Assembly: GCA_030425645.1 (NCBI GenBank)
Contig: JAUHZK010000010.1
Location: forward strand, 1 to 64,000
Source: Gammaproteobacteria bacterium
GTDB lineage: Bacteria; Pseudomonadota; Gammaproteobacteria; JAPPPA01
DNA: 64,000 nt
Direction: 5' to 3'
Shown here: piece by piece, positions 5,604-39,818 of the stretch
How positions within the stretch are numbered: the stretch's first letter is position 1
How the letters are laid out: the number at the start of each line of letters is the position of its first letter
Notes under the pieces: model-generated
Database searches by the model: none
Seen by the model: the letters and a program-made list of their open reading frames with translations, nothing else
What the model was told of the DNA's origin: nothing
Program-made: the position numbers and the translations under genes

Positions 5604-6404
5604 TTAAGACTTTGCAATCAGTGGCTGAAGGTTAGCGCCAAACCAGCTGCCCATAATTTTGATTCCATCCATACCAGGCAGCTGACCAATTTTCTGATCC
5701 ACTTCCTCTATTAATTCATCTTTATAATCATCGCCGAATAAACCAGAGAAAAGTCGGGCAACTTCTTCGTTTGTCTTTACACCTGCCCCAACTGGACTCC
5801 AAAAACGCTCAAGCATAAAACGTACAAGTTTGCGATGACTTGGGTTCTCTTCTAGTCGCTTCTTAGCATTGTTGTAGTACCAAGAAAAATGCACCCGCTC
5901 TTGCTTCATGATTCTTTTGCAGATTTCATCTAGAACAGGATTGCTGGTGGTATCACGAATACGTTGATAACCAGAATGTGTTGTAAATTCCTGAACCGCA
6001 CCCCACGTCATATATAAGGTAACGAAGCGCTCATTCAGTAGACGAGAAACTTTACTGGTCAACCAAGCTAGAAACTTCTCTTTGAAGGTTGCTCTACGCC
6101 GGACTTCGGCAATACGATTCGGCTCAAGGCGAGTGCCACAAACCTCCAGCACTTTGGACAATGCTTCGCCATGGAAGTACTCCTCGTAGTTCCATGCAGA
6201 TAAAAAACCGATAACTTCAGGATCGTCCACAGCGGTGGTGTGAAGGATGTCCCGCATATACATAATTGTTTGCCCTTCGATATCGGTAAAGTAGGTAAGA
6301 ACAAACTCCTCCTCGTTCGTCAGCCCGGCGTTAGCTGCGACATCCCAGTCAATACCACCTAAATCGAGTTTGCTAGAGATTTCGAGTACGCGTTGAGTTT
6401 TCAT
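5604..6404 (-). CDS. Ferritin-like di-iron protein, acyl-desaturase-like
   Basis: This is a 266-residue helical protein with the two E...ExxH halves of a ferritin-superfamily di-iron site: E43 in DIEGQ, E75 and H78 in EEYFH, E139 in QEFTT, and E169 and H172 in QERVH. Spacing fits soluble acyl-ACP desaturase (DesA/FA_desaturase_2) relatives rather than ferritins. It would use O2 and an electron donor to desaturate or hydroxylate an acyl chain in the cytoplasm. ATG 6404 has AGGTG six bases before it and is preferred to a GTG three codons earlier. It stands alone, with 228 bases of unassigned DNA on its upstream side. A link to the ether-lipid cassette on the opposite strand is only positional. 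Confidence 0.7.
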   Translation of the reverse strand: MKTQRVLEISSKLDLGGIDWDVAANAGLTNEEEFVLTYFTDIEGQTIMYMRDILHTTAVDDPEVIGFLSAWNYEEYFHGEALSKVLEVCGTRLEPNRIAEVRRRATFKEKFLAWLTSKVSRLLNERFVTLYMTWGAVQEFTTHSGYQRIRDTTSNPVLDEICKRIMKQERVHFSWYYNNAKKRLEENPSHRKLVRFMLERFWSPVGAGVKTNEEVARLFSGLFGDDYKDELIEEVDQKIGQLPGMDGIKIMGSWFGANLQPLIAKS

Positions 6405-6558
6405 TTGATTCACCTAGTTGGATTGAATGGTGTAATCAAACCATGCCCCAGCATGGCCAACAAACCATTTTTGAATATCAAGACTGGGACATAGTAAATA
6501 CTAACTAGTTTCGGACCGTCGCCAAAAAGATAACAGTAAGAAGGCCAAACCAAATCAG

Positions 6559-6632: not shown

Positions 6633-9600
6633 CTAGGTAATCACCATTAACCAAGTCATCACCCAACGAATAGCCCCAGAGCACCGGGTGATTGTCTGCC
6701 CGGTATCTCCAATAATTGAGAAGCGTCCGTAGTGCTCTATAAAAGCCTCTGAATTAGAAGCAACCTTTTTACGCGGCGGCATCTGGTTTTCCAAATACGG
6801 TTTAACAAAATCTGTTTCTGGCAACGCAGCCCAAAGCTCAAGTTGTTCTTCATCTAGACGAACTCGAGCCAGTTTACTTTGTGCTTGCATCTTCCATGTC
6901 GTTAGCAACCAACTAAGTTGCTCGGGATTAGCTTGTCGCAAGGCTTCTAGATAATCACAAAACAAAGCCGCTGCGACCGTTGGCGAGCGAGCCGGCAGTG
7001 GTTTAGGCACCAATACGCCATCGCATTCCACCAGTGAGTGCCGAGGCACATCACTGCCCTTCTTGGCGGTTTTCAATTTTGAAAGGGCAATTAGTTCTTC
7101 TCGTATCTGTTCTAGGTTCTCACCAGTTTCGTTTGGCACATGTCCCGTTAAGAGAGCCTGCAAATGCTCAAAACGCTCGAAGTAAATTTCTCGTGAGGCT
7201 CCCTCAAGTAACTCACCCGCAGCAGCCTTCTGGACCTTAAAACCAGAAAAGCCATGATCCAAAGTTTCCGTATCCGAGTCGACTAGCTCCTTCAATACAT
7301 TATGAATGTGCGCTTGTTGATCCTTCGTTTCAAAATCAGCAGTGTTCTCTCGCCACACCCTCTGCCGTCGGCGCATCGTTGCAGGGCTTTTGATGCGATA
7401 TTCAAATGCACGATCAAAGTCGATCGCAGGCAGGGTGTGTAGGTATGCCAACTGAGCAATACCAACAGTGTGGATGTAATAGCGCAATGTAGTGGTTGGG
7501 TGCGAATGACCCAACATAGCAGAAATGGCTTGAACTCCGTGCCCACTAAACCCCTCGTTCCCTAATAAGACGCCTAAACGCCCTCTCGGAATTAATAATT
7601 GCTGCAACCAAGGGATGTGGTCCTGTATCGAATTAAAGTCTACAGCGGGCTGCAAAACCGATAACAGTAGCTGACTAGCAACGGTGTGTCGCAATATATG
7701 TAAGTGAGAGTTTGGATCTCCAGTAACTGCCTGAATCAGCTTATTGAGTGGATCAAAAAACTGGCTTCCATCAACCCACCGGTCAGGTGAGACTAATTGG
7801 TTAGGACGGTTAGTGTCATTTTCGCTTAACCATTTAGTGAAATTCTTGTCCGCATATCCAACCGGAAGATTGCGACGGGAGCTGTTCGTTTTTAGCGTAT
7901 GGTCATCGTAAGGCTGTACGCGCATCAGGTTTTTTTGCACGTCTAGCAACCGCAAGTTAATGGCCTCGGTACGCCGAAGACCATAAGTGCCGACCATGCG
8001 CATCACACCGACTGCAGATGCCCTTGCATCCTCAGATCCAATGCCGCTCAACGCAGACCCGAGCGCTTCAATTACCTGCCGTTGGTGTGCCGGCAAAACA
8101 AGCGTGCTCAGCACCCCCTGCAATTGGCCGGGCTCAATATCCCCTACTTTTATTCCGAGCTGTGACAGCTTGTTAACGGTGCCGCGCTGACGCAGACATT
8201 TCCTAAGCAGCCCAAATGCCTCGGCCGTGCTGACATTTGAGTGATGATCCACGAACCCATCATGGATTTGGCTAAGCAAGGACTCGTCAATAACAAAACC
8301 ACGGTTTGGCTCAGAGCAAAAGCCAAACAAACTGTAACCAACCACTTCAATCAACTTTTTATAGCGCTGCTTCTCCGCTTCGGGTAATTTGTTTTTAACA
8401 AGCTTAAGTTCTTTTTGGTGTAACCACGTCGCGAAATACCCGAGCAGTCGGTTCCGATAACCTTTCTCGGTCAGCTTGTTTATTCTTTTGATTCGCGTAC
8501 TTGGGTCAGGCGAGCGAATAGCAGCCACTTCGCGAACAGGGTTCGCGTTTCTAGGCAAATCTTGTGATGGCAGTTCAGAGGGTTCTGGCCTGAATGATTG
8601 CTCCAAACTATCATTTTCCACGGAGGCGACACGCGACTCTTGTGCTACTGGCAGCCCTAACAAGTGCCTTAATTCGTTCTCGGGTAAATCGTGTGTCTCA
8701 AACTCACCCGCAGCATAGGCGGCTAGCAACGGCGCGCCATTAAGCAAATGATATTGCTGAGATGCCTGCAAAAGCGTCGTTAGCAACTTTGTTCCAGCCA
8801 CGTCAGCCAATTCTTTGAGGTAGGCGGCTAACAACCGCTGACATTTAGCTCGGCGCTGTTGCGGATTTAATTCGACAAGAGGTTGTAGCAAGTCACTAAT
8901 TCGCTCTCGCTCAGCCGCCAGATAAATCGCACTGTAGGGCTCCAGAAAAATGAGTCGGTCCATCTTCGCCCCATTACGCCGACAACGAATCATCGCTGGG
9001 ACATATCGCAGACCTGCCGTGGCTCTTATTCCATGCTGGAGGAAGCCTTCGATAAATTGGTTGACCACCGGCCAGGTACTCAGTCCTTGTCGCCACATCA
9101 ATATCATAAAGAAACGAGCGAGCTGATGTTTATCACTATCCGGCGGTGGCAAGTGCGAAAGTTCTTTATTAAAGGCCGGCAATACATGCCGCTCTAAATA
9201 GGCCAAATTAACGATGGCATTACGCTTAATAAGCCAATCTTTTTGAAACTGCCTTCTAGGCTTATTGACGTATATCGGTACTTTCCACTCGCGTCGAGCG
9301 TAGTCGCAGCAGTCCTTAGCAATTTGGATTTCCGTTTTAATGTCTTTGCCGCATGCCTTAGCAACCTTCAATATCAAACTCATCACAGCGGCAGGGACTT
9401 TCTCAGTCGTGCCGCAAACCGCCTTATAAAGTTCTTCGGCATGCTCTTGAAAGGCTTCTTCAATTTGCTGCTTTTTAAGTACTGCCTTTGAGTCTTCCTT
9501 AACAGGCGATTTCTCGAGCGTCGAGGAGACAGGCACGAGCGTCAAAGGAATAGGCCAGGCGATTGCCGGCTTAGCAATCTTAGGATGAGTAATCACCCAA

Positions 9601-12110
9601 AAACCTAGGCGCTTTTCTAGCTGTTGCTGTCCTTCAAGCCACAAGCCATTGGCTTCTCGAGCACAATAGTTTGATGTAACGCGAAACGGATGGCGTCCTA
9701 ATACCCAATGACCTTGCATGGCGTTTTGAATTCGCCCACCAAGATTCGTCAAACTCGCCTGAATATACTTACGAGCCCAATTACCTGGCATAGGAATCAA
9801 CGCTTCAGATTCATAAAGCCACTTAGGTCGAAAATCGACGACTTGGCTCTGCGCATTGATGAACTGAAACCGGAGCACACCGTTCGTCAATGAATCAGCG
9901 AGCGGCTGAAATTGAGGTACTGTTAACGACAGATGCCACACATAAGCCACATACGCTTTCAGTTGCGCTTGAACACCCAGAGTAAGTGGTACTGGCCGTT
10001 CAGCACTGTCATCACCTCGGTGTTTATCACTGATTAATGCTGTACCACCAATGATCGCTACCGGCGAAGGATTGACCCGGCCACGCGAACCAGTTGCAAG
10101 GTTTAGCCACAACAGCGTATACATCGTCATGAGGTTAAACACATGGACATCTGCCCCCTGCTCAAGACGGACGGCTAGGCGCCTTTGGACCTGCTGTATC
10201 TGTTCACGCAAAGCCCTTTCATCAATGGCCTCTGGGGTGCCTAAGCACTGTTCACCGAACAAGTCATCAGACATGCCATCTTTTTGGGCTACAAGGCTTC
10301 GTGGACTAACCCCGATAAGATGTGCAACTGCATTAGCCCAGGCATAACAAACCGTTGACTCAGCAAAAGAGGCGTAATGAATAATATTGTTGTAGTTAAG
10401 ACCATTACGATCAGTAATAACCTTAACGATGCCTAAATCTCCCTTATTCAAGGATAAAAGCTCAAACAACAACGCATCACGCACAGCGGCGCTTGAAAAG
10501 CCATACCCGGTTGGCTGCCGCCGAACCAAATTTTCAGCTGCTTTCCGATAAGTTGAAGAGCGAAGATGACCGTCACCTAGCCACTTCGCGTCACCCATCA
10601 ATTCCTGTAAGAACTTCGGCAACTTAATCGTCACCATCTCACCGTGCGGAGAGAGTATGCGAGACCCTTCTAATTTGGATCTAGCCTTTTTTGTTAGGTT
10701 TGGCGCCCCGGCCTTAACCCGTAATAGCCCTTTAGCGATATCAACTTGAATAGTCGGCTCGTTCTTCCAACGATAAGCGACTGGCTGGATTTCAGTCACT
10801 CTCAATTCTTCAAAACTACGGCCTGTTATTAAGCTCAGACCGACTAATACCTTCCCCGCGCGTTTAGCGACGGATGCTTTGCGCTGTGATTCACTCAGCT
10901 TTTCGGAAACATTTCTGTCCTGGTGAGTTAATACATTTTTTATCAACTCTCTAACTGCAACAATGCTTAGACGGTGGGCCGACCACGGGAGCTGTGCATT
11001 TTGATATTCAACTGCATACTGAGCGCCTTTTGCCGCATACCAACCCTGAAGCAAGTCATCGGTGTCTTCATATACCAATCGGTAAGTCGGGTCCTTAGGC
11101 GGGAGGTCTTCATCATCGACATCATCAATGGCCTCTTTGGGTAGCTTCAATTTTGCTGGCTTCGGCTCGGGCGTTACATCAACAATTAACGTCTTGCCTG
11201 CATCAGTACCGACTACAAGGGAGTCCCCATAGCGGCTCGCTTTGGAGCCGAAGAGCTTTTTCTTTTCTTGCTTTTGCCTAGAAACATGATTTGGAGACGA
11301 TCGACCTGAAGTACCTGGGACCCACATAAGTCGCCATAAATACCTCATCGGACTCGCCACTGAGTCGCGAACCGTAACTAGTCGCTCTCTTAATTCGTCA
11401 ATATCTGTTTCGGGGGCAAACTGCTTGATGAAACCAAGCGTCTGCGAGATCCCGTTCCGCCCGCGAACATGTTCAGCCAGTTTAGCGAGTCTCTTGCCAG
11501 AGTCTGCAGTCATTCCTAAATCAAGCTGTGCGAGTCGCTCTAGATCTTTGGACTTTGACGAATCCGCAAGCTTCCTGACATAAAGAGCTGCAGACGCAAT
11601 ACGGCCACTGTATTTATTACTGGATAACTTAGGCCTACCCTCTGCCGATAAGATATAGCTTTCGTAACGGTCAGGACTAAGAGCTTCAGCATGGTATCTA
11701 AGCGCTATCCATAGGAACCACGCCAATACTTTTTCAAACTCTGCCTGTTGCTCACCGTCATATCGATTAAGCAACATCAGATCACAAATCGGGCTATCCC
11801 CAGTAAACGGGGTCAAGGGGCACGGAGAGTCTTTTGGAAGATGGGATTGCTTGAAGTGATCTTCCGCGAAATCCAACTGGGAAATACGGCGCAGAATATC
11901 CAGTCTTGGACTCAGGTTTTCTATGTTGTGGTCCAGAAGATTTGGGTACTGCTGTTCAAACTCAAAGATGCGCCGCGTGCATGTCACTATGGCTTCTAAA
12001 TTGTGGTGCGCTGAGATCAACCGCAGTGCATCGATTAGTTCAGCCTGTGTTACCACACCCATGCCCTGCGAGTTGAGCATGTCGAGTAGCTGCTTAAGGC
12101 GCGCATTCAC
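6633..12110 (-). CDS. Giant multi-module tyrosine recombinase-like protein, 1825 residues
   Basis: The C-terminal third (about residues 1330-1580) is a tyrosine recombinase catalytic domain with every key residue visible: R1379 in YGLRR, K1407 in TLKTNSSRR, H1471 and R1474 in HILRHTV, H1535 in LGHSH, and nucleophile Y1545 in TTTLRYYIHT. Two earlier regions look like degenerate versions of the same fold. Region A (about 415-590) has TGRSFEEL with R431 and an AAVRD box at 541-545 in place of HxxR. Region B (about 660-815) has ATGSRGRVN with R676, K696, and H807 and R810 in GRHPFR, but no following GH...Y. Ordinary recombinases are 300-450 residues, so this is four to five times too long. The GTG start overlaps the upstream stop (GTGA), so it is coupled to the 226-residue protein. 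No cargo gene lies between. Target site and function (integration, excision or defence-island mobility) are inferred. Confidence 0.75.
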   Translation of the reverse strand: MNARLKQLLDMLNSQGMGVVTQAELIDALRLISAHHNLEAIVTCTRRIFEFEQQYPNLLDHNIENLSPRLDILRRISQLDFAEDHFKQSHLPKDSPCPLTPFTGDSPICDLMLLNRYDGEQQAEFEKVLAWFLWIALRYHAEALSPDRYESYILSAEGRPKLSSNKYSGRIASAALYVRKLADSSKSKDLERLAQLDLGMTADSGKRLAKLAEHVRGRNGISQTLGFIKQFAPETDIDELRERLVTVRDSVASPMRYLWRLMWVPGTSGRSSPNHVSRQKQEKKKLFGSKASRYGDSLVVGTDAGKTLIVDVTPEPKPAKLKLPKEAIDDVDDEDLPPKDPTYRLVYEDTDDLLQGWYAAKGAQYAVEYQNAQLPWSAHRLSIVAVRELIKNVLTHQDRNVSEKLSESQRKASVAKRAGKVLVGLSLITGRSFEELRVTEIQPVAYRWKNEPTIQVDIAKGLLRVKAGAPNLTKKARSKLEGSRILSPHGEMVTIKLPKFLQELMGDAKWLGDGHLRSSTYRKAAENLVRRQPTGYGFSSAAVRDALLFELLSLNKGDLGIVKVITDRNGLNYNNIIHYASFAESTVCYAWANAVAHLIGVSPRSLVAQKDGMSDDLFGEQCLGTPEAIDERALREQIQQVQRRLAVRLEQGADVHVFNLMTMYTLLWLNLATGSRGRVNPSPVAIIGGTALISDKHRGDDSAERPVPLTLGVQAQLKAYVAYVWHLSLTVPQFQPLADSLTNGVLRFQFINAQSQVVDFRPKWLYESEALIPMPGNWARKYIQASLTNLGGRIQNAMQGHWVLGRHPFRVTSNYCAREANGLWLEGQQQLEKRLGFWVITHPKIAKPAIAWPIPLTLVPVSSTLEKSPVKEDSKAVLKKQQIEEAFQEHAEELYKAVCGTTEKVPAAVMSLILKVAKACGKDIKTEIQIAKDCCDYARREWKVPIYVNKPRRQFQKDWLIKRNAIVNLAYLERHVLPAFNKELSHLPPPDSDKHQLARFFMILMWRQGLSTWPVVNQFIEGFLQHGIRATAGLRYVPAMIRCRRNGAKMDRLIFLEPYSAIYLAAERERISDLLQPLVELNPQQRRAKCQRLLAAYLKELADVAGTKLLTTLLQASQQYHLLNGAPLLAAYAAGEFETHDLPENELRHLLGLPVAQESRVASVENDSLEQSFRPEPSELPSQDLPRNANPVREVAAIRSPDPSTRIKRINKLTEKGYRNRLLGYFATWLHQKELKLVKNKLPEAEKQRYKKLIEVVGYSLFGFCSEPNRGFVIDESLLSQIHDGFVDHHSNVSTAEAFGLLRKCLRQRGTVNKLSQLGIKVGDIEPGQLQGVLSTLVLPAHQRQVIEALGSALSGIGSEDARASAVGVMRMVGTYGLRRTEAINLRLLDVQKNLMRVQPYDDHTLKTNSSRRNLPVGYADKNFTKWLSENDTNRPNQLVSPDRWVDGSQFFDPLNKLIQAVTGDPNSHLHILRHTVASQLLLSVLQPAVDFNSIQDHIPWLQQLLIPRGRLGVLLGNEGFSGHGVQAISAMLGHSHPTTTLRYYIHTVGIAQLAYLHTLPAIDFDRAFEYRIKSPATMRRRQRVWRENTADFETKDQQAHIHNVLKELVDSDTETLDHGFSGFKVQKAAAGELLEGASREIYFERFEHLQALLTGHVPNETGENLEQIREELIALSKLKTAKKGSDVPRHSLVECDGVLVPKPLPARSPTVAAALFCDYLEALRQANPEQLSWLLTTWKMQAQSKLARVRLDEEQLELWAALPETDFVKPYLENQMPPRKKVASNSEAFIEHYGRFSIIGDTGQTITRCSGAIRWVMTWLMVIT

Positions 12111-12787
12111 AACGTTATAACGCCCATGTTCTTACGAATCGCACTGGCAGCGGACTTACTGTAACCAGTAAGTAACGCTGCCTCTGCTGCGGTGTCGGAC
12201 AACCTACAAATCAGCTCTAGGTTATTTGAAATCAAGTCCCCTAATACTGCCAAGACCATATCGGAAACTTGAGGAAGCGATAGCTGTCTAGGTAAAGGAT
12301 GCTTAATTACTGAGAATCTCGCCTTTGTCGCCGGTAATCGGTAACCAGCGATAGCGGCAATTAACTGTCCGTTGTATACGGTATGTTTGCCACTGTTGGA
12401 ATGAAATCCTACGACGGGAGATGCCCATTCCAACAAAACCGGTAAACGGGCTTTAGAAACACCAAGCAAGAATTGTTCGGCCGCTTGGTTGACCGAAACA
12501 TTTAGAACATCCCTGCGTGCGTATTTTTCAAGCTGGTACAGCTGCAGTTCACGGCGCCTACTCTCAAATGCGTAGTCCGCTACACGCCATCTATAACTAA
12601 ATCGATCATTGGGCCGCGTAACATTTAGATACCTAGCGAACGCCACTTCATACGCCGCGACAATAAGCGCTTTGTAATGCGCCTTGCCGAGCCTATTAAT
12701 GCAACCCGTTTCGGAAATCAGACACGCGGCATACCCCAAATAGAACTGCCACGATCGTTGCGGATAAATTGGAACATCTAGTTTCAA
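12107..12787 (-). CDS. Unknown 226-residue partner of the giant recombinase
   Basis: I do not recognise this family. The protein is basic (many Arg and Lys) with no signal peptide or membrane helix. Its C-terminal 50 residues (from about SDTAAEAALLTGYSKSAASA) look like a helix-turn-helix, which suggests DNA binding. It is translated just before the giant recombinase with a four-base overlap, so the two probably work together, for example as an accessory DNA-binding or directionality factor; this is inference. The ATG at 12787 begins about 290 bases downstream of the initiator-tRNA promoter on the same strand, and that promoter may drive it. Confidence 0.6.
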   Translation of the reverse strand: MKLDVPIYPQRSWQFYLGYAACLISETGCINRLGKAHYKALIVAAYEVAFARYLNVTRPNDRFSYRWRVADYAFESRRRELQLYQLEKYARRDVLNVSVNQAAEQFLLGVSKARLPVLLEWASPVVGFHSNSGKHTVYNGQLIAAIAGYRLPATKARFSVIKHPLPRQLSLPQVSDMVLAVLGDLISNNLELICRLSDTAAEAALLTGYSKSAASAIRKNMGVITL

Positions 12788-12923: not shown

Positions 12924-13040
12924 AAGTCGGTATAAATCGACAAAAATGGGCAAAAGTAATTTCGCCTATTAACATTATTTATCAATGTTTTAGGTGGATT
13001 TACGCCGAGTAATGACGCTTAAAGACATCTAAGACGTTAG

Positions 13041-13078
13041 CATTATGAGCGACGAGCTGCCAACTGCTCCACCCCGCA
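13041..13078 (-). pseudogene. 5' half of an initiator tRNA (tRNA-fMet) gene
   Basis: On the minus strand, 13078 to 13041 reads as the first half of tRNA-fMet: acceptor strand TGCGGGG, then TG, D-stem GAGC, D-loop AGTTGGCA, D-stem GCTC, G, TCG and the anticodon loop CTCATAA with anticodon CAT. Two G residues of the anticodon stem are missing. After the loop the sequence becomes unrelated, and there is no T-arm, 3' acceptor strand or CCA. A functional tRNA cannot be made. A canonical tRNA promoter lies immediately upstream, so this is a broken native gene, not chance similarity. The 3' half was not found elsewhere in the window. Breakage inside the anticodon region next to a tyrosine recombinase module suggests integration or rearrangement there. 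Confidence 0.8.
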
Positions 13079-13092
13079 TCAGGATGGCGCGC

Positions 13093-13121
13093 ATTATAGG
13101 GATGCCCCCTAGCCATAGCAA
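13093..13121 (-). promoter_or_regulatory. Strong tRNA-type sigma-70 promoter
   Basis: On the minus strand a -35 box TTGCTA (13116-13121) and a perfect -10 box TATAAT (13093-13098) are separated by 17 bases. They are followed by the GC-rich discriminator GCGCGCC usual for stable-RNA promoters under stringent control. The tRNA-fMet fragment starts 15 bases after the -10 box. With no tRNA left to make, transcription would run on into the 226-residue gene and the giant recombinase. Confidence 0.75.
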
Positions 13122-13341
13122 CCGATATTTGAGAAAACAACAAGAAATAAGTCAGTTAATATGGAATGCGCTCTTCGTCGGACCACTACATAACAAAACC
13201 AAACAGCACCACAAGAAACTTTTAGGCAACGCGCCGTCCTGATAACCTAATCAACGCAGGCCTCGACTGCTTAAGAGCCCTTACAGAGCCGGGGCCACAC
13301 CGACAACCAACAACGCCAACCCGCCCATTTAGACCGACCAA

Positions 13342-36301: not shown

Positions 36302-37069
36302 CTAGTTCAGCTTTGCCACCTGTTTCAGCGGCAAATTGCGCATTAAAAAGCCTACCGGTTTCCAAGGCCATGCAGGTACACAGGCTTCGTCGACTTCGGC
36401 TTCAATCTCTTTCACCAGCAATTTGCAGCCTTTCTCGGCTTCGATAATAAATGGCAGCTTGTCGTTGTCGCCGGTAAGTTCGGTTTTGATATAACCCGGA
36501 TACAACGTGGTAACTTTAATGCCGGGCTTACGCATACAGTCAGCACGCAGGCCTTCTGCTAGGTGCGCGACGGCCGCTTTAGTGGCCGCATAGGTCGCTA
36601 GCATGCCGCGCTGGCCGCGCATAGCGCTCATGCTAGAGACAATCACTAAATGGCCTTTACCACTCTCGCGGAACAGCCCCATAGCCGCTTCGGCTTGGGC
36701 TAATACCGCGGTAAAGTTAATGTCGATAATGCGTTTGTTTTGCTCAAACTTACCCTTACCGACGGTTTCGCCTTCGGCACCAACACCGGCGTTGGCGATA
36801 TAACGCTCTAAGCCACGGCCAGTGGTGGCCTTAAATTCGGCATCAAAGGCTTCAGTAACGCTAAAGACATCATCAAACTGAGTCACGTCTAAGGCTTTAA
36901 CCAATACCGTGATATTCGGGTTAATGGCCAGCAACTCGGCTTTTAGTGCTTCAAGGCGATCGGTGCGGCGTGCACACAGGGCTAAGTTATTGCCTTTAGC
37001 TGCCAGCTCTTTGGCCATACCAGCGCCTAAACCAGAACTGGCACCAGTGATTAAGGTATTTTTGCTCAT
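36302..37069 (-). CDS. Short-chain dehydrogenase/reductase
   Basis: This is a 255-residue classical SDR: TGASSGLGAGMA for the cofactor, an NAG motif (IANAGVG), the catalytic Ser in IVSSMSA and YAATK as Y-x-x-x-K. Length fits a soluble NAD(P)-dependent alcohol/keto reductase. The substrate is unknown. It lies downstream of the acyl-CoA dehydrogenase/kinase genes but is set apart from them by an inverted repeat at 37091-37165, so it may be a separate transcript. Confidence 0.85.
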   Translation of the reverse strand: MSKNTLITGASSGLGAGMAKELAAKGNNLALCARRTDRLEALKAELLAINPNITVLVKALDVTQFDDVFSVTEAFDAEFKATTGRGLERYIANAGVGAEGETVGKGKFEQNKRIIDINFTAVLAQAEAAMGLFRESGKGHLVIVSSMSAMRGQRGMLATYAATKAAVAHLAEGLRADCMRKPGIKVTTLYPGYIKTELTGDNDKLPFIIEAEKGCKLLVKEIEAEVDEACVPAWPWKPVGFLMRNLPLKQVAKLN

Positions 37070-37090
37070 GTTATTTCCATCAGAGCTTTC

Positions 37091-37165
37091 GGGGACAGAC
37101 CCCTCCGCTCAAAACCATTTCAACTATGTAAGTTCATCATGCTAATCGAAGCGGGGTCTGTCCCC
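37091..37165. repeat. Paired REP-like inverted repeat
   Basis: GGGGACAGACCCC (37091-37103) and its exact reverse complement GGGGTCTGTCCCC (37153-37165) flank 49 bases. Each 13-mer is itself nearly palindromic. I recall this type of motif from dispersed REP-like repeats in other bacteria. It fills the gap between the histidine phosphatase and the SDR and could fold into one long hairpin. Confidence 0.75.
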
Positions 37166-37172
37166 TACCTCG

Positions 37173-37865
37173 CTAGCGGTAGGTAATTAAATGCTGGCGC
37201 TCGCCTTCAAAGGCGCTGTGTTCATTCAGTGACGACAGGTACATGCCGCGGTCACTGTAAATAATTTTGGTTATGCCGCAATTAGCGAGTGTCCAATTCA
37301 GTTTAAAGATGTCTTCGTCGCTGATATGCAGCAAGTGCTGGGCCACGGCAGAAATCGGCCCACCGCTGGTAAAGACAAAGGCCGTTTTCGATGGCCCCAA
37401 GCTATCTCGTAGGTGATTAAGGGATTGCAGCACACGGGCCTGAAACTGCTGCCAAGTTTCTGTGTATTCGTCGCTATACTCGTTGCTCAACCAGCGCTCA
37501 ATCGCGGCCGCAAACATCTTCTGAAATTCGCGTCGTGGGTTTAGCGTTCTAGCTAAATCAGCCTTCATCACCAGTTTGTTTTTATAGGCCGGTTTATAAC
37601 GCTCAATAACCTGTTCATGGTCATACTCATTCCAACCGGCGTTAATGATCCAGCCTCGACTATTGCCCATGCCTTGCAGGCAGCCTTCGGCAGTTTGCCG
37701 ATGCCGCTTCATGCTGCCAATTTGCACCGCATCTAATTGCGGCACACGGTGCTTTAAGGACTCCCCCAATACAAGCGGCTGCTTTAGGCCGGTCTTTGAG
37801 AGGTTGTCATAGTCGGCTTTTCCAAAGGAAGCCTGACCGTGGCGGATAAGATAAATCGCGCCCAT
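37173..37865 (-). CDS. Histidine phosphatase family protein (phosphoglycerate-mutase fold)
   Basis: This is a 230-residue protein with the N-terminal phosphohistidine motif LIRHGQASFG (family RHG) and the second catalytic His region as FTSGGPISA, where the usual GHG pattern is altered. It hydrolyses or transfers phosphate on a small molecule. It starts immediately after the kinase stop, so a paired kinase/phosphatase role in the same pathway is possible. The changed second motif makes the activity less certain. Confidence 0.8.
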   Translation of the reverse strand: MGAIYLIRHGQASFGKADYDNLSKTGLKQPLVLGESLKHRVPQLDAVQIGSMKRHRQTAEGCLQGMGNSRGWIINAGWNEYDHEQVIERYKPAYKNKLVMKADLARTLNPRREFQKMFAAAIERWLSNEYSDEYTETWQQFQARVLQSLNHLRDSLGPSKTAFVFTSGGPISAVAQHLLHISDEDIFKLNWTLANCGITKIIYSDRGMYLSSLNEHSAFEGERQHLITYR

Positions 37866-38933
37866 TTAACCAGCCTTTTTGATTAAACGCTGGCAGCGCC
37901 AGTTCAGGTAGTTGACCATAATCCAAAAGTTTTTAAAGGTTGGGTTGCGTGTTTGCTTGTGGTGATAACGGTAATAAATCTGCTGCAAGATCACAGCTAG
38001 ACGAAACAGCCCATAAACTTCGTAGAAGGCCCAATTATCGGGTTGCAAACCCGATTTCTCTAAGTAGTAGTCAACCACTTCTTGGCGAGTCAACATGCCC
38101 GGCAAATGGGTTGGCTGGCGGCGCATCGCTTTAATCAGAAAGTCATCGTCTTCTTGCACCCAATAGGCCAAGCTGTTGCCTAGATCCATCAATGGGTCGC
38201 CTAGGGTCGCCATTTCCCAATCCAGCACCCCGATAACCTCAGCGGGGTTATCTGGGTTTAGCACCACATTGTCAAAACGGTAGTCGTTATGAATCACACA
38301 AGTAGCAATATCGTCTGGGCAGTTTTTATCTAACCAGCGCATCACTTTTTTAAACGACGGCACATTCCAGGTTTTGGCCTTAGCGTAACGACCGCTCCAG
38401 CCATCAATCTGGCGGCGGCAATAACCATCGCCCTTGCCAATAGACTCTAGGCCTGCGGTTTGGTAATCCACTTGGTGCAGCTCAACAAACTTGTCGATCA
38501 CACTCATGCAAATTTCGCGGGTCGTCTGCGGCGTTAGTTCAAGCTCACGCGGCATATTGGCGCGCGGAATAATGCCCTTGAGCCGATCCATCACGTAAAA
38601 GTCGGTGCCAATCACGTTCTCGTCGTCACAGAAAGCATGCATTTGTGGCACGTAAGGAAATACCGGCTTTAAGGCAGACTGCACCTTAAACTCGCGCCCC
38701 ATATCATGGGCACCCTTTGCCTTGGTCCCCGCGGGGCCACGGCGCAGAATTAAGTCGTGGCTGGGATACTCAAGACGATAGGTCCAGTTAGACGCGCCAC
38801 CAGAGTATTGCGTCACCTCAGCCTGCCCTTCTAAGCCATGTAGCTGTGGTTTTAACCAAGCATCTACCGCAGCAATATCCAGTTCTTCACCAGCACGGAC
38901 AGCCCCACCTACATCTATTATTCCTTTAGGCAC
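37866..38933 (-). CDS. APH-fold phosphotransferase, ACAD11-N/LvaA-like
   Basis: This is a 355-residue kinase-fold protein of the aminoglycoside phosphotransferase superfamily, in the group related to the N-terminal half of ACAD10/11: SGGASNWTYRLEY for the nucleotide loop, HNDYRFDNVVL as catalytic loop and VLDWEMATLGDPLMDL as metal-binding loop. Known relatives such as LvaA phosphorylate 4-hydroxyacyl-CoA during levulinate or 4-hydroxyacid breakdown. An acyl-CoA dehydrogenase lies in the same gene group, as in ACAD11 fusions. GTG 38933 has GGAGG six bases upstream. The start overlaps a relic frame of a paralogue. Confidence 0.85.
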   Translation of the reverse strand: MPKGIIDVGGAVRAGEELDIAAVDAWLKPQLHGLEGQAEVTQYSGGASNWTYRLEYPSHDLILRRGPAGTKAKGAHDMGREFKVQSALKPVFPYVPQMHAFCDDENVIGTDFYVMDRLKGIIPRANMPRELELTPQTTREICMSVIDKFVELHQVDYQTAGLESIGKGDGYCRRQIDGWSGRYAKAKTWNVPSFKKVMRWLDKNCPDDIATCVIHNDYRFDNVVLNPDNPAEVIGVLDWEMATLGDPLMDLGNSLAYWVQEDDDFLIKAMRRQPTHLPGMLTRQEVVDYYLEKSGLQPDNWAFYEVYGLFRLAVILQQIYYRYHHKQTRNPTFKNFWIMVNYLNWRCQRLIKKAG

Positions 38934-39015
38934 GAGCTATCCTCCGATTGTCCTGAGCTTGTCGAAGGGCGCCTTCGCGTACGGCGCCGCCAATATCAAT
39001 CACGCCCTTACTCAT
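38926..39015 (-). pseudogene. N-terminal relic of a second APH-like kinase gene
   Basis: This 29-codon frame starts with ATG overlapping the SDR stop (ATGA). Its first 15 residues MSKGVIDIGGAVREG match the intact kinase start MPKGIIDVGGAVRAG, yet nearly every third codon position differs. After residue 15 it runs into a dispersed-repeat sequence and ends at TAA inside the start of the intact gene. It looks like the stub of an old tandem paralogue whose body was lost, rather than a recent duplication. It may still help translational coupling. Confidence 0.7.
38950..38969. repeat. Dispersed intergenic repeat motif
   Basis: The motif TCCTGAGCTTGTCGAAGG lies exactly where the kinase relic loses similarity. 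I recognise this string as a common dispersed repeat of many proteobacterial genomes. Only one copy is seen in this window, so its repeated nature here is from general knowledge. Confidence 0.5.
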
Positions 39016-39818
39016 TTTTTCTTCACTCTCGCTACCGTGCGCTTAATCATCATCTCGGCATATTGCTTAAACGGCAACACACGCTTGAGGTTAAAGATCA
39101 GCCGATCTTGATAGAGCGGAATCACATGAAACTGCCCCTTGTGTACGGCTTTCCAACAGGCTTCTGCCACATCGGGCGCGGTTAGTTTGGCATGCTTAAA
39201 TAGCTTCGACATCATCACCCGAATTTCATCATCATCCGTGCGCAACGACTCTTCCAAATTGGTTTTAAAAAACGACGGACAGATCACTGAAACGCCAATA
39301 TTGTCTTGTGACAACTCGATGGCTAAGGTTTCAGATAAAGCCACCGCGCCGGCCTTACTGGCGTTATAGCTGGCCATCCCCGGCGGATGAATCAGACCCG
39401 CCATGGAGGAGGTATTTAGGAAATAACCCCCACCCTGCCGCTTAAAAATGGGCGTAAAGACCTTACAACCGCGGGCAATACCGACAACGTTAATATCTAG
39501 TACAGCCAGCCAGTCTTCGATCTTATGGTTCTCAATCCGTCCGCCAGTAGCGATACCAGCGTTGTTAACCACCACGTCGACTCCACCCCAGTCGGCGACC
39601 AAACGATCCGCTACCGCTTGAAGGTCTTGCTCTTTGGTGACGTCAACGTGCTCGTAACGACCTTCGCCACCAAGCTCGTTGACCATGGCAACCACTTCAG
39701 CACCACGGTCGGCGTTAATGTCGCCAATGCAAACCTTCCAACCGGCCCGTGCCCAGCGTTCAGCAATCGCCCGGCCGAGGCCAGACGCACCACCTGTAAT
39801 AAAAATTCTATTGCTCAC
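39012..39818 (-). CDS. Short-chain dehydrogenase/reductase
   Basis: This is a 268-residue classical SDR with TGGASGLGRAIAERW, VNNAGIAT, a Ser in NTSSMAG and YNASK as Y-x-x-x-K. The basic C terminus (RTVARVKKK) may aid membrane contact. It lies between the acyl-CoA dehydrogenase and the kinase on the same strand, so it probably oxidises or reduces a hydroxyacyl or keto intermediate of the same pathway; LvaD in levulinate catabolism is a comparable SDR. Substrate is inferred. Confidence 0.87.
   Translation of the reverse strand: MSNRIFITGGASGLGRAIAERWARAGWKVCIGDINADRGAEVVAMVNELGGEGRYEHVDVTKEQDLQAVADRLVADWGGVDVVVNNAGIATGGRIENHKIEDWLAVLDINVVGIARGCKVFTPIFKRQGGGYFLNTSSMAGLIHPPGMASYNASKAGAVALSETLAIELSQDNIGVSVICPSFFKTNLEESLRTDDDEIRVMMSKLFKHAKLTAPDVAEACWKAVHKGQFHVIPLYQDRLIFNLKRVLPFKQYAEMMIKRTVARVKKK

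Follow-up and report, generated by a model that had tools for sequence, protein, structure and literature searches.

A tyrosine recombinase family in which two tandem modules may divide one active site beside a third, complete module

A protein of three modules (M1, M2 and M3) of the tyrosine recombinase (YR) type is encoded as a single 1825-residue chain in the 64,000-nucleotide stretch of DNA analyzed here, the window, and its relatives lie at the ends of mobile elements. M3 carries a complete catalytic set, and the residues conserved in M1 and M2 appear to make up a further, nearly complete set between them. We propose, with a probability of roughly 0.58, that this protein is the integrase of a mobile-element family in which M1 and M2 divide one active site, M3 is complete, and the left end is placed at short palindromic targets.

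According to this model, two overlapping genes would give a chain in which three YR-fold modules are linked and a small partner that probably binds DNA. M3 would work as a complete tyrosine recombinase. M2 would bind and activate the scissile phosphate through its Arg-Lys-Arg-His residues, and M1 would supply the tyrosine nucleophile to M2 from the neighboring module, as happens between protomers in yeast Flp. Each recombination would thus draw its four active sites, in two non-equivalent pairs, from two chains or from two copies of each split protein, and the left end of the inserted element would come to lie at a short palindromic target, for example a tRNA anticodon stem-loop.

Gene pair and family architecture

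The gene for the fused three-module recombinase (6633..12110, minus strand) begins with GTG and encodes 1825 aa. It overlaps the partner gene of 226 aa (12107..12787, minus strand) by 4 bp, GTGA. Small genes of about 100-240 aa hold the same position in most relatives of this pair, and some of their products show a weak helix-turn-helix match; when conserved motifs were sought in the small partner protein, the members proved too divergent for safe alignment. The only Pfam match in the 1825-aa protein is to its C-terminal catalytic domain (PF00589, residues 1359-1484, E 9e-9). Nevertheless, tblastn against plasmids found homologues in 39 Acinetobacter plasmids that cover residues 1-1823 at about 27% identity, and in all the intact, annotated Acinetobacter plasmid copies examined the large gene follows one of about 220 aa. 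Because these homologues are full-length, the three-module chain is more than chance. Furthermore, an assembly artefact or a chance fusion as the source of the chain is ruled out by a well-supported fused clade, made of the window and the Acinetobacter chains, and by further fused members.

With a profile of M1+M2, 14 of the 369 class genomes and 20 of the 398 phylum genomes sampled proved to contain members, about 4-5%. When module HMMs were run on the open frames of 45 loci, a single order, M1-M2-M3, was found. The usual layout is two overlapping genes, [M1+M2] and [M3], of about 800 and 1000 aa. The three modules form one fused chain, of 1473-1941 aa, in the window, in the 39 Acinetobacter plasmids and at six other loci, and in one lineage (G143) M1 is a separate protein of 521 aa and M2+M3 are joined in one of 1278 aa. 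The window genome itself has a second, split copy on another contig, C2 (158 + 831 + 1033 aa), and further split copies were found in genome G026, Vibrio cyclitrophicus, Acinetobacter towneri, Sphingobium yanoikuyae and Aeromonas caviae. In a tree of M3 the window and the Acinetobacter chains form one group (support 100/99). The fused state requires two or more changes if well-supported branches alone are counted, and five on the best tree, in which many deep branches are weak. To date these proteins have been annotated merely as 'hypothetical protein' beside 'integrase'. No homologue of the trio was found in phage records; a weak match on a viral contig was dismissed as a 382-aa integrase-like ORF of ordinary size.

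The initial annotation of this locus had reported the 1825-residue frame and its 226-residue partner, both of which are present, and had suggested a recombinase trio fused in one chain that acts with the partner. The window chain does contain three YR modules, but fusion is not the rule, as most relatives have two overlapping genes. The outcome which that annotation had named as speaking against its proposal, conservation of the C-terminal domain alone, is not what we observed, since conservation extends beyond that domain.

Module folds and catalytic residues

M3 (residues 1331-1573; 7392..8120, minus strand) has the complete set R1379-K1407-H1471xxR1474H-H1535-Y1545. Residues R1379, K1407, R1413, H1471, R1474, H1475, H1535 and Y1545 are nearly invariant in 39-41 members (the first His in 35/40) and make up a second, complete catalytic set. 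In every aligned member the HxxRH motif is separated from the GH motif by a long insert.

M2 (about residues 629-843; 9582..10226, minus strand) is recognized as a tyrosine recombinase by sequence in 12 of 32 relatives, where PF00589 matches with a best E of 7e-5, below the curated cut-off. It retains Arg676, Lys696, Arg705, Arg780 and Gly800-His801, has Asn777 in place of His-II, and has lost the tyrosine. M1 (about residues 339-627; 10230..11096, minus strand) has lost the catalytic Arg and His and kept Tyr579 (codon at 10374..10376, minus strand). No match of M1 to known YR families was found by sequence in 31 members, each relative tested alone, and hhalign detected no similarity of M1, or of M1+M2, to the family's own M3. 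AlphaFold2, given an alignment of the window and genome loci only, modeled M1 alone with pLDDT 85 and pTM 0.82, and M1+M2 with pLDDT 82 and pTM 0.82. In Foldseek the eleven best PDB matches of the M1 model were all tyrosine recombinases (best probability 0.99, E 0.008, TM <0.5), and tyrosine recombinases were also the best PDB matches of the M1+M2 model (E 0.025, a modest value; TM <0.5); the top matches of the two models include the S. aureus integrase 3nkh, XerH, the Tn1549 integrase and Cre. The prediction of a YR fold for M1 is consequently good but not final, since the E-values are modest and the TM-scores below 0.5. Likewise, Tyr579 is matched to the YR nucleophile by predicted fold and alignment only, because M1 has no sequence similarity to known YR families and its profile comparison with M3 failed; we regard it as the probable counterpart of that nucleophile.

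Residues were counted in an alignment of 45 divergent members with 436 columns for M1+M2. The fully invariant columns are Tyr579 in M1 and Arg676, Lys696, Arg705, Gly800 and His801 in M2, and almost every other position varies across the family. By column, Tyr579 is present in 41/41 members, Arg676 and Lys696 in 43/43, His801 in 43/43 and Arg780 in 43/44, counts to be read with the caution that the members were collected with a profile that itself contains the invariant residues and that single rows may be misaligned at such divergence. Against the first caution, the search matched M2 only in many members, and yet the tyrosine stood in register. An independent MAFFT alignment of 32 members (A3, mean column identity 20%) has Y, R, K, R, R, G and H as its only invariant columns, and in an alignment of M1 alone (A4) Tyr579 is the sole one. 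M1 has no conserved Arg, Lys or His, and His-II of M2 is Asn in 36/43 members. As far as alignment and predicted fold allow the residues to be matched, M1 thus keeps the nucleophile only and M2 a pocket that lacks one, and together they hold one nearly complete catalytic set. In the G143 lineage the M1 protein, with its Tyr, is separate from the protein bearing M2+M3, and therefore the Tyr and the pocket are on different chains there. If the complementarity of the losses in M1 and M2 means what it suggests, each chain has two active sites rather than one, the first of them shared by M1 and M2.

Flp offers a parallel to such sharing. In the yeast enzyme the Tyr nucleophile of one protomer enters the pocket of another, and every protomer has all the residues. 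The sequence pattern in the window family is the one expected for cleavage in trans; the difference is that here Tyr and pocket appear to be segregated into different modules. Ser813 of M2 stands exactly 12 residues past the GH motif and is Ser in 37/43 members, so that M2 might instead be active alone, with Ser813 or a nearby residue as nucleophile and the M1 tyrosine in another role. The fixed distance and the frequency of Ser are in its favor. Asp, Asn, Thr or Ala takes its place in the other six members, the invariant M1 tyrosine is left unexplained, and a Ser nucleophile has, to our knowledge, no precedent in the YR fold; we consider this very improbable. M1 and M2 could also be non-catalytic YR-fold subunits that serve DNA binding and synapse shaping, with M3 alone cutting the DNA. 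Such a role would fit the absence of all pocket residues from M1 and of Tyr and His-II from M2, and has a parallel in Tfp of SEs and GinC of GInts, which have been proposed to lack DNA-processing activity (PMC10214605). It does not, though, require a Tyr conserved in 41/41 members, or Arg676, Lys696 and His801 in 43/43, amid positions that vary, and we hold it to be unlikely.

The division of one site between M1 and M2, which we favor, alters the earlier picture of this chain in part. The intact C-terminal module with its full R-K-HxxR-H-Y set was correctly described, and the two degenerate regions upstream, placed at about residues 415-590 and 660-815, correspond to real modules whose limits shift to about 339-627 and 629-843. 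The predicted structures of M1 and M1+M2 have YRs as their best matches, at the values given above. The loss of key residues from both is also real, but the losses are complementary and what remains is invariant (Tyr in M1; Arg-Lys-Arg-His in M2), so that the description of these modules as non-catalytic subunits does not agree with the nearly complete catalytic set that they jointly hold.

Left ends, insertion sites and neighboring genes

Family members are mobile elements with sharp left ends in different host DNA. The sequence shared by the Acinetobacter plasmids has an abrupt start, TTAGTATAAAAATAARGTTAGTAAATAAAT, at one fixed position some 150 bp ahead of the small gene. The left flanks of these copies differ: IS5 and IS3 transposase genes are interrupted at the start point, and in two plasmids the flank is the small gene of another copy, itself interrupted. 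A 6.7-kb unit shared by Vibrio methylphosphonaticus and V. thalassae is 90% identical, and its flanks in the two are unrelated. In four Vibrio-type copies (those two, Vibrio sp. 99-70-13A1 and genome G593) the left end coincides with a tRNA-Gly(UCC) 3' half whose break is at the anticodon loop. In the window, the left end adjoins a tRNA-fMet gene of which the promoter region and the 5' part are present (13029..13151, minus strand); this stretch is identical to the intact copy up to the anticodon stem and is interrupted there, in the anticodon stem-loop. In a related genome (G001) an uninterrupted tRNA-fMet lies between homologues of window 36302-39812 and rimP-nusA-infB; in the window genome the beginning of contig C12 carries rimP-nusA-infB, which follow an intact tRNA-fMet and an arm-binding integrase. 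From the cut tRNA-fMet in the window, the intact gene order in G001 and the position of rimP-nusA-infB on C12, the trio appears to stand at one end of an island at tRNA-fMet, an arrangement read from two separate contigs, C4 and C12.

Searches through the interrupted IS5 genes up to 50 kb away, through repeats and through the tRNA halves that are missing gave a right end for no copy. In the Acinetobacter and Vibrio copies searched, the left end did not recur in inverted form nearby, and the other half of each interrupted tRNA (tRNA-fMet, tRNA-Gly) was absent from the genomes searched. A 44-bp tRNA-Gly repeat 46 kb away was dropped as a candidate far end, as native flanks surround that copy in a related species. 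Either a substitute half is carried by the element, or the far end has been lost, or the mechanism is one-sided.

An arm-binding integrase of one type, sometimes or often with an HD-domain protein, is located within a few kb of about one third of the 45 loci, and may be either a partner of the trio or the true integrase at those loci. Since it is this close to so many loci and, on the far side of the island of the window, stands next to the intact tRNA-fMet, it may target tRNA-fMet in the window genome. The same observations could mean that the trio is cargo or an accessory (for defence, plasmid resolution or control) on elements moved by this separate enzyme. However, the Acinetobacter and Vibrio copies have no integrase of this kind close by, the sharp end of their moved unit is marked by the trio itself, and M3 is intact throughout the family; we judge a cargo role to be quite unlikely. 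Insertion would then be the work of the trio and not of the neighboring integrase.

Other features were observed around these loci. The split copy on contig C2 (L013/L125) faces two genes, one for an arm-binding integrase and one, overlapping the M3 stop, for an HD-domain protein; this neighboring pair recurs in several other genomes. At Acinetobacter loci L017, L018 and L028-L033, most of the copies examined have the 3' end of an IS5-family element, left as an inverted remnant, some 20-160 bp past the large gene, and in plasmid pXH901 of A. haemolyticus (L018) a BREX defence cluster is downstream of the recombinase pair. In the window, a ferritin-like protein gene (5604-6413) adjoins the element and has two paralogues of about 80% identity on contigs C12 and C14. 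A polysaccharide-type gene cluster (13342-36300) starts beside the interrupted tRNA-fMet and would appear to be a second insertion there, because the genes adjoining the tRNA in G001 match window 36302-39812.

Known multi-recombinase systems and significance

M3 contains the R-K-H/K-R-H/W-Y catalytic domain of the YR superfamily, and M2 is predicted to have the same fold. The likeness to recombinase-in-trio (RIT) elements, with which the fused trio had first been compared, lies in three YR units in fixed order with overlapping genes (ritA, ritB, ritC). Nevertheless, RitA, RitB and RitC each have their own catalytic motif, with no split set, in an element of about 3.5 kb (PMC3414803). A fused RIT is thereby ruled out, M1 and M2 each lacking part of the motif and the family having one or two genes instead of three YR genes.

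Strand-biased circularizing integrative elements (SEs), with genes intA, tfp, intB and srap (PMC10214605), resemble the window family in having several YR-fold proteins in a left-end operon, one of them without catalytic residues, a large YR, translational overlaps and site-preferring insertion. They differ in having two separate complete YRs, IntA and IntB, and Tfp without RHRY, in four genes; in the window family the small gene comes first, M1+M2 share one set, and M3 follows, often in the same chain. The intA-tfp-intB-srap operon with its two complete YRs is absent from the window family (compared with PMC10214605). SEs are further marked by imperfect terminal inverted repeats of 13-19 bp and a 6-bp fingerprint/footprint; such repeats were not found in the window family, where left ends only are defined. 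GInts (ginABCD; PMC5385486) share with it three YR-fold units, one of them degenerate (GinC), a small putative DNA-binding protein and residence in genomic islands. In GInts the units are encoded by separate genes, GinA and GinB are both complete, and GinD comes at the end (PMC5385486); by that published description the window family, with its small gene first and one complete YR, is set apart. YR-fold proteins without catalytic residues are known as separate subunits, Tfp and GinC (PMC10214605), and non-catalytic partners as such are therefore not new.

The gamma-mobile-trio is likewise a mobile-element recombinase module of three genes. Identity with it was rejected: the NCBIfam models for GmtY, GmtZ and GmtX miss the window proteins and hhalign found no profile similarity. 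All three models match a locus on contig C9 of the window genome (3519-8173, L014), a complete gamma-mobile-trio, and this strain therefore has at least two kinds of multi-recombinase element.

Neither two modules dividing one catalytic set nor a single three-module chain was found described in the searchable literature, which mostly excludes subscription papers, and we claim no priority; a survey makes no mention of fused, tandem or inactive forms (PMC8138268). We put at even odds the full statement that one active site is permanently split over two tandem modules and joined to a third, complete module in a chain of about 1.7-1.9 thousand residues, giving two non-equivalent sites that bring islands into tRNA anticodon loops.

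How RIT, GInt, SE and Tn554 use several YR proteins, some of them seemingly dead, is an unsolved question. If our reading is true, a pair that seems 'dead' may be a single active site in two parts, which would be a sharp and testable answer, and the family would represent a natural, obligate version of Flp-type cleavage in trans. Its recombinase modules are controlled in order and covalently linked, its fused and split forms are natural experiments, and it is common, in about 4-5% of the genomes sampled.
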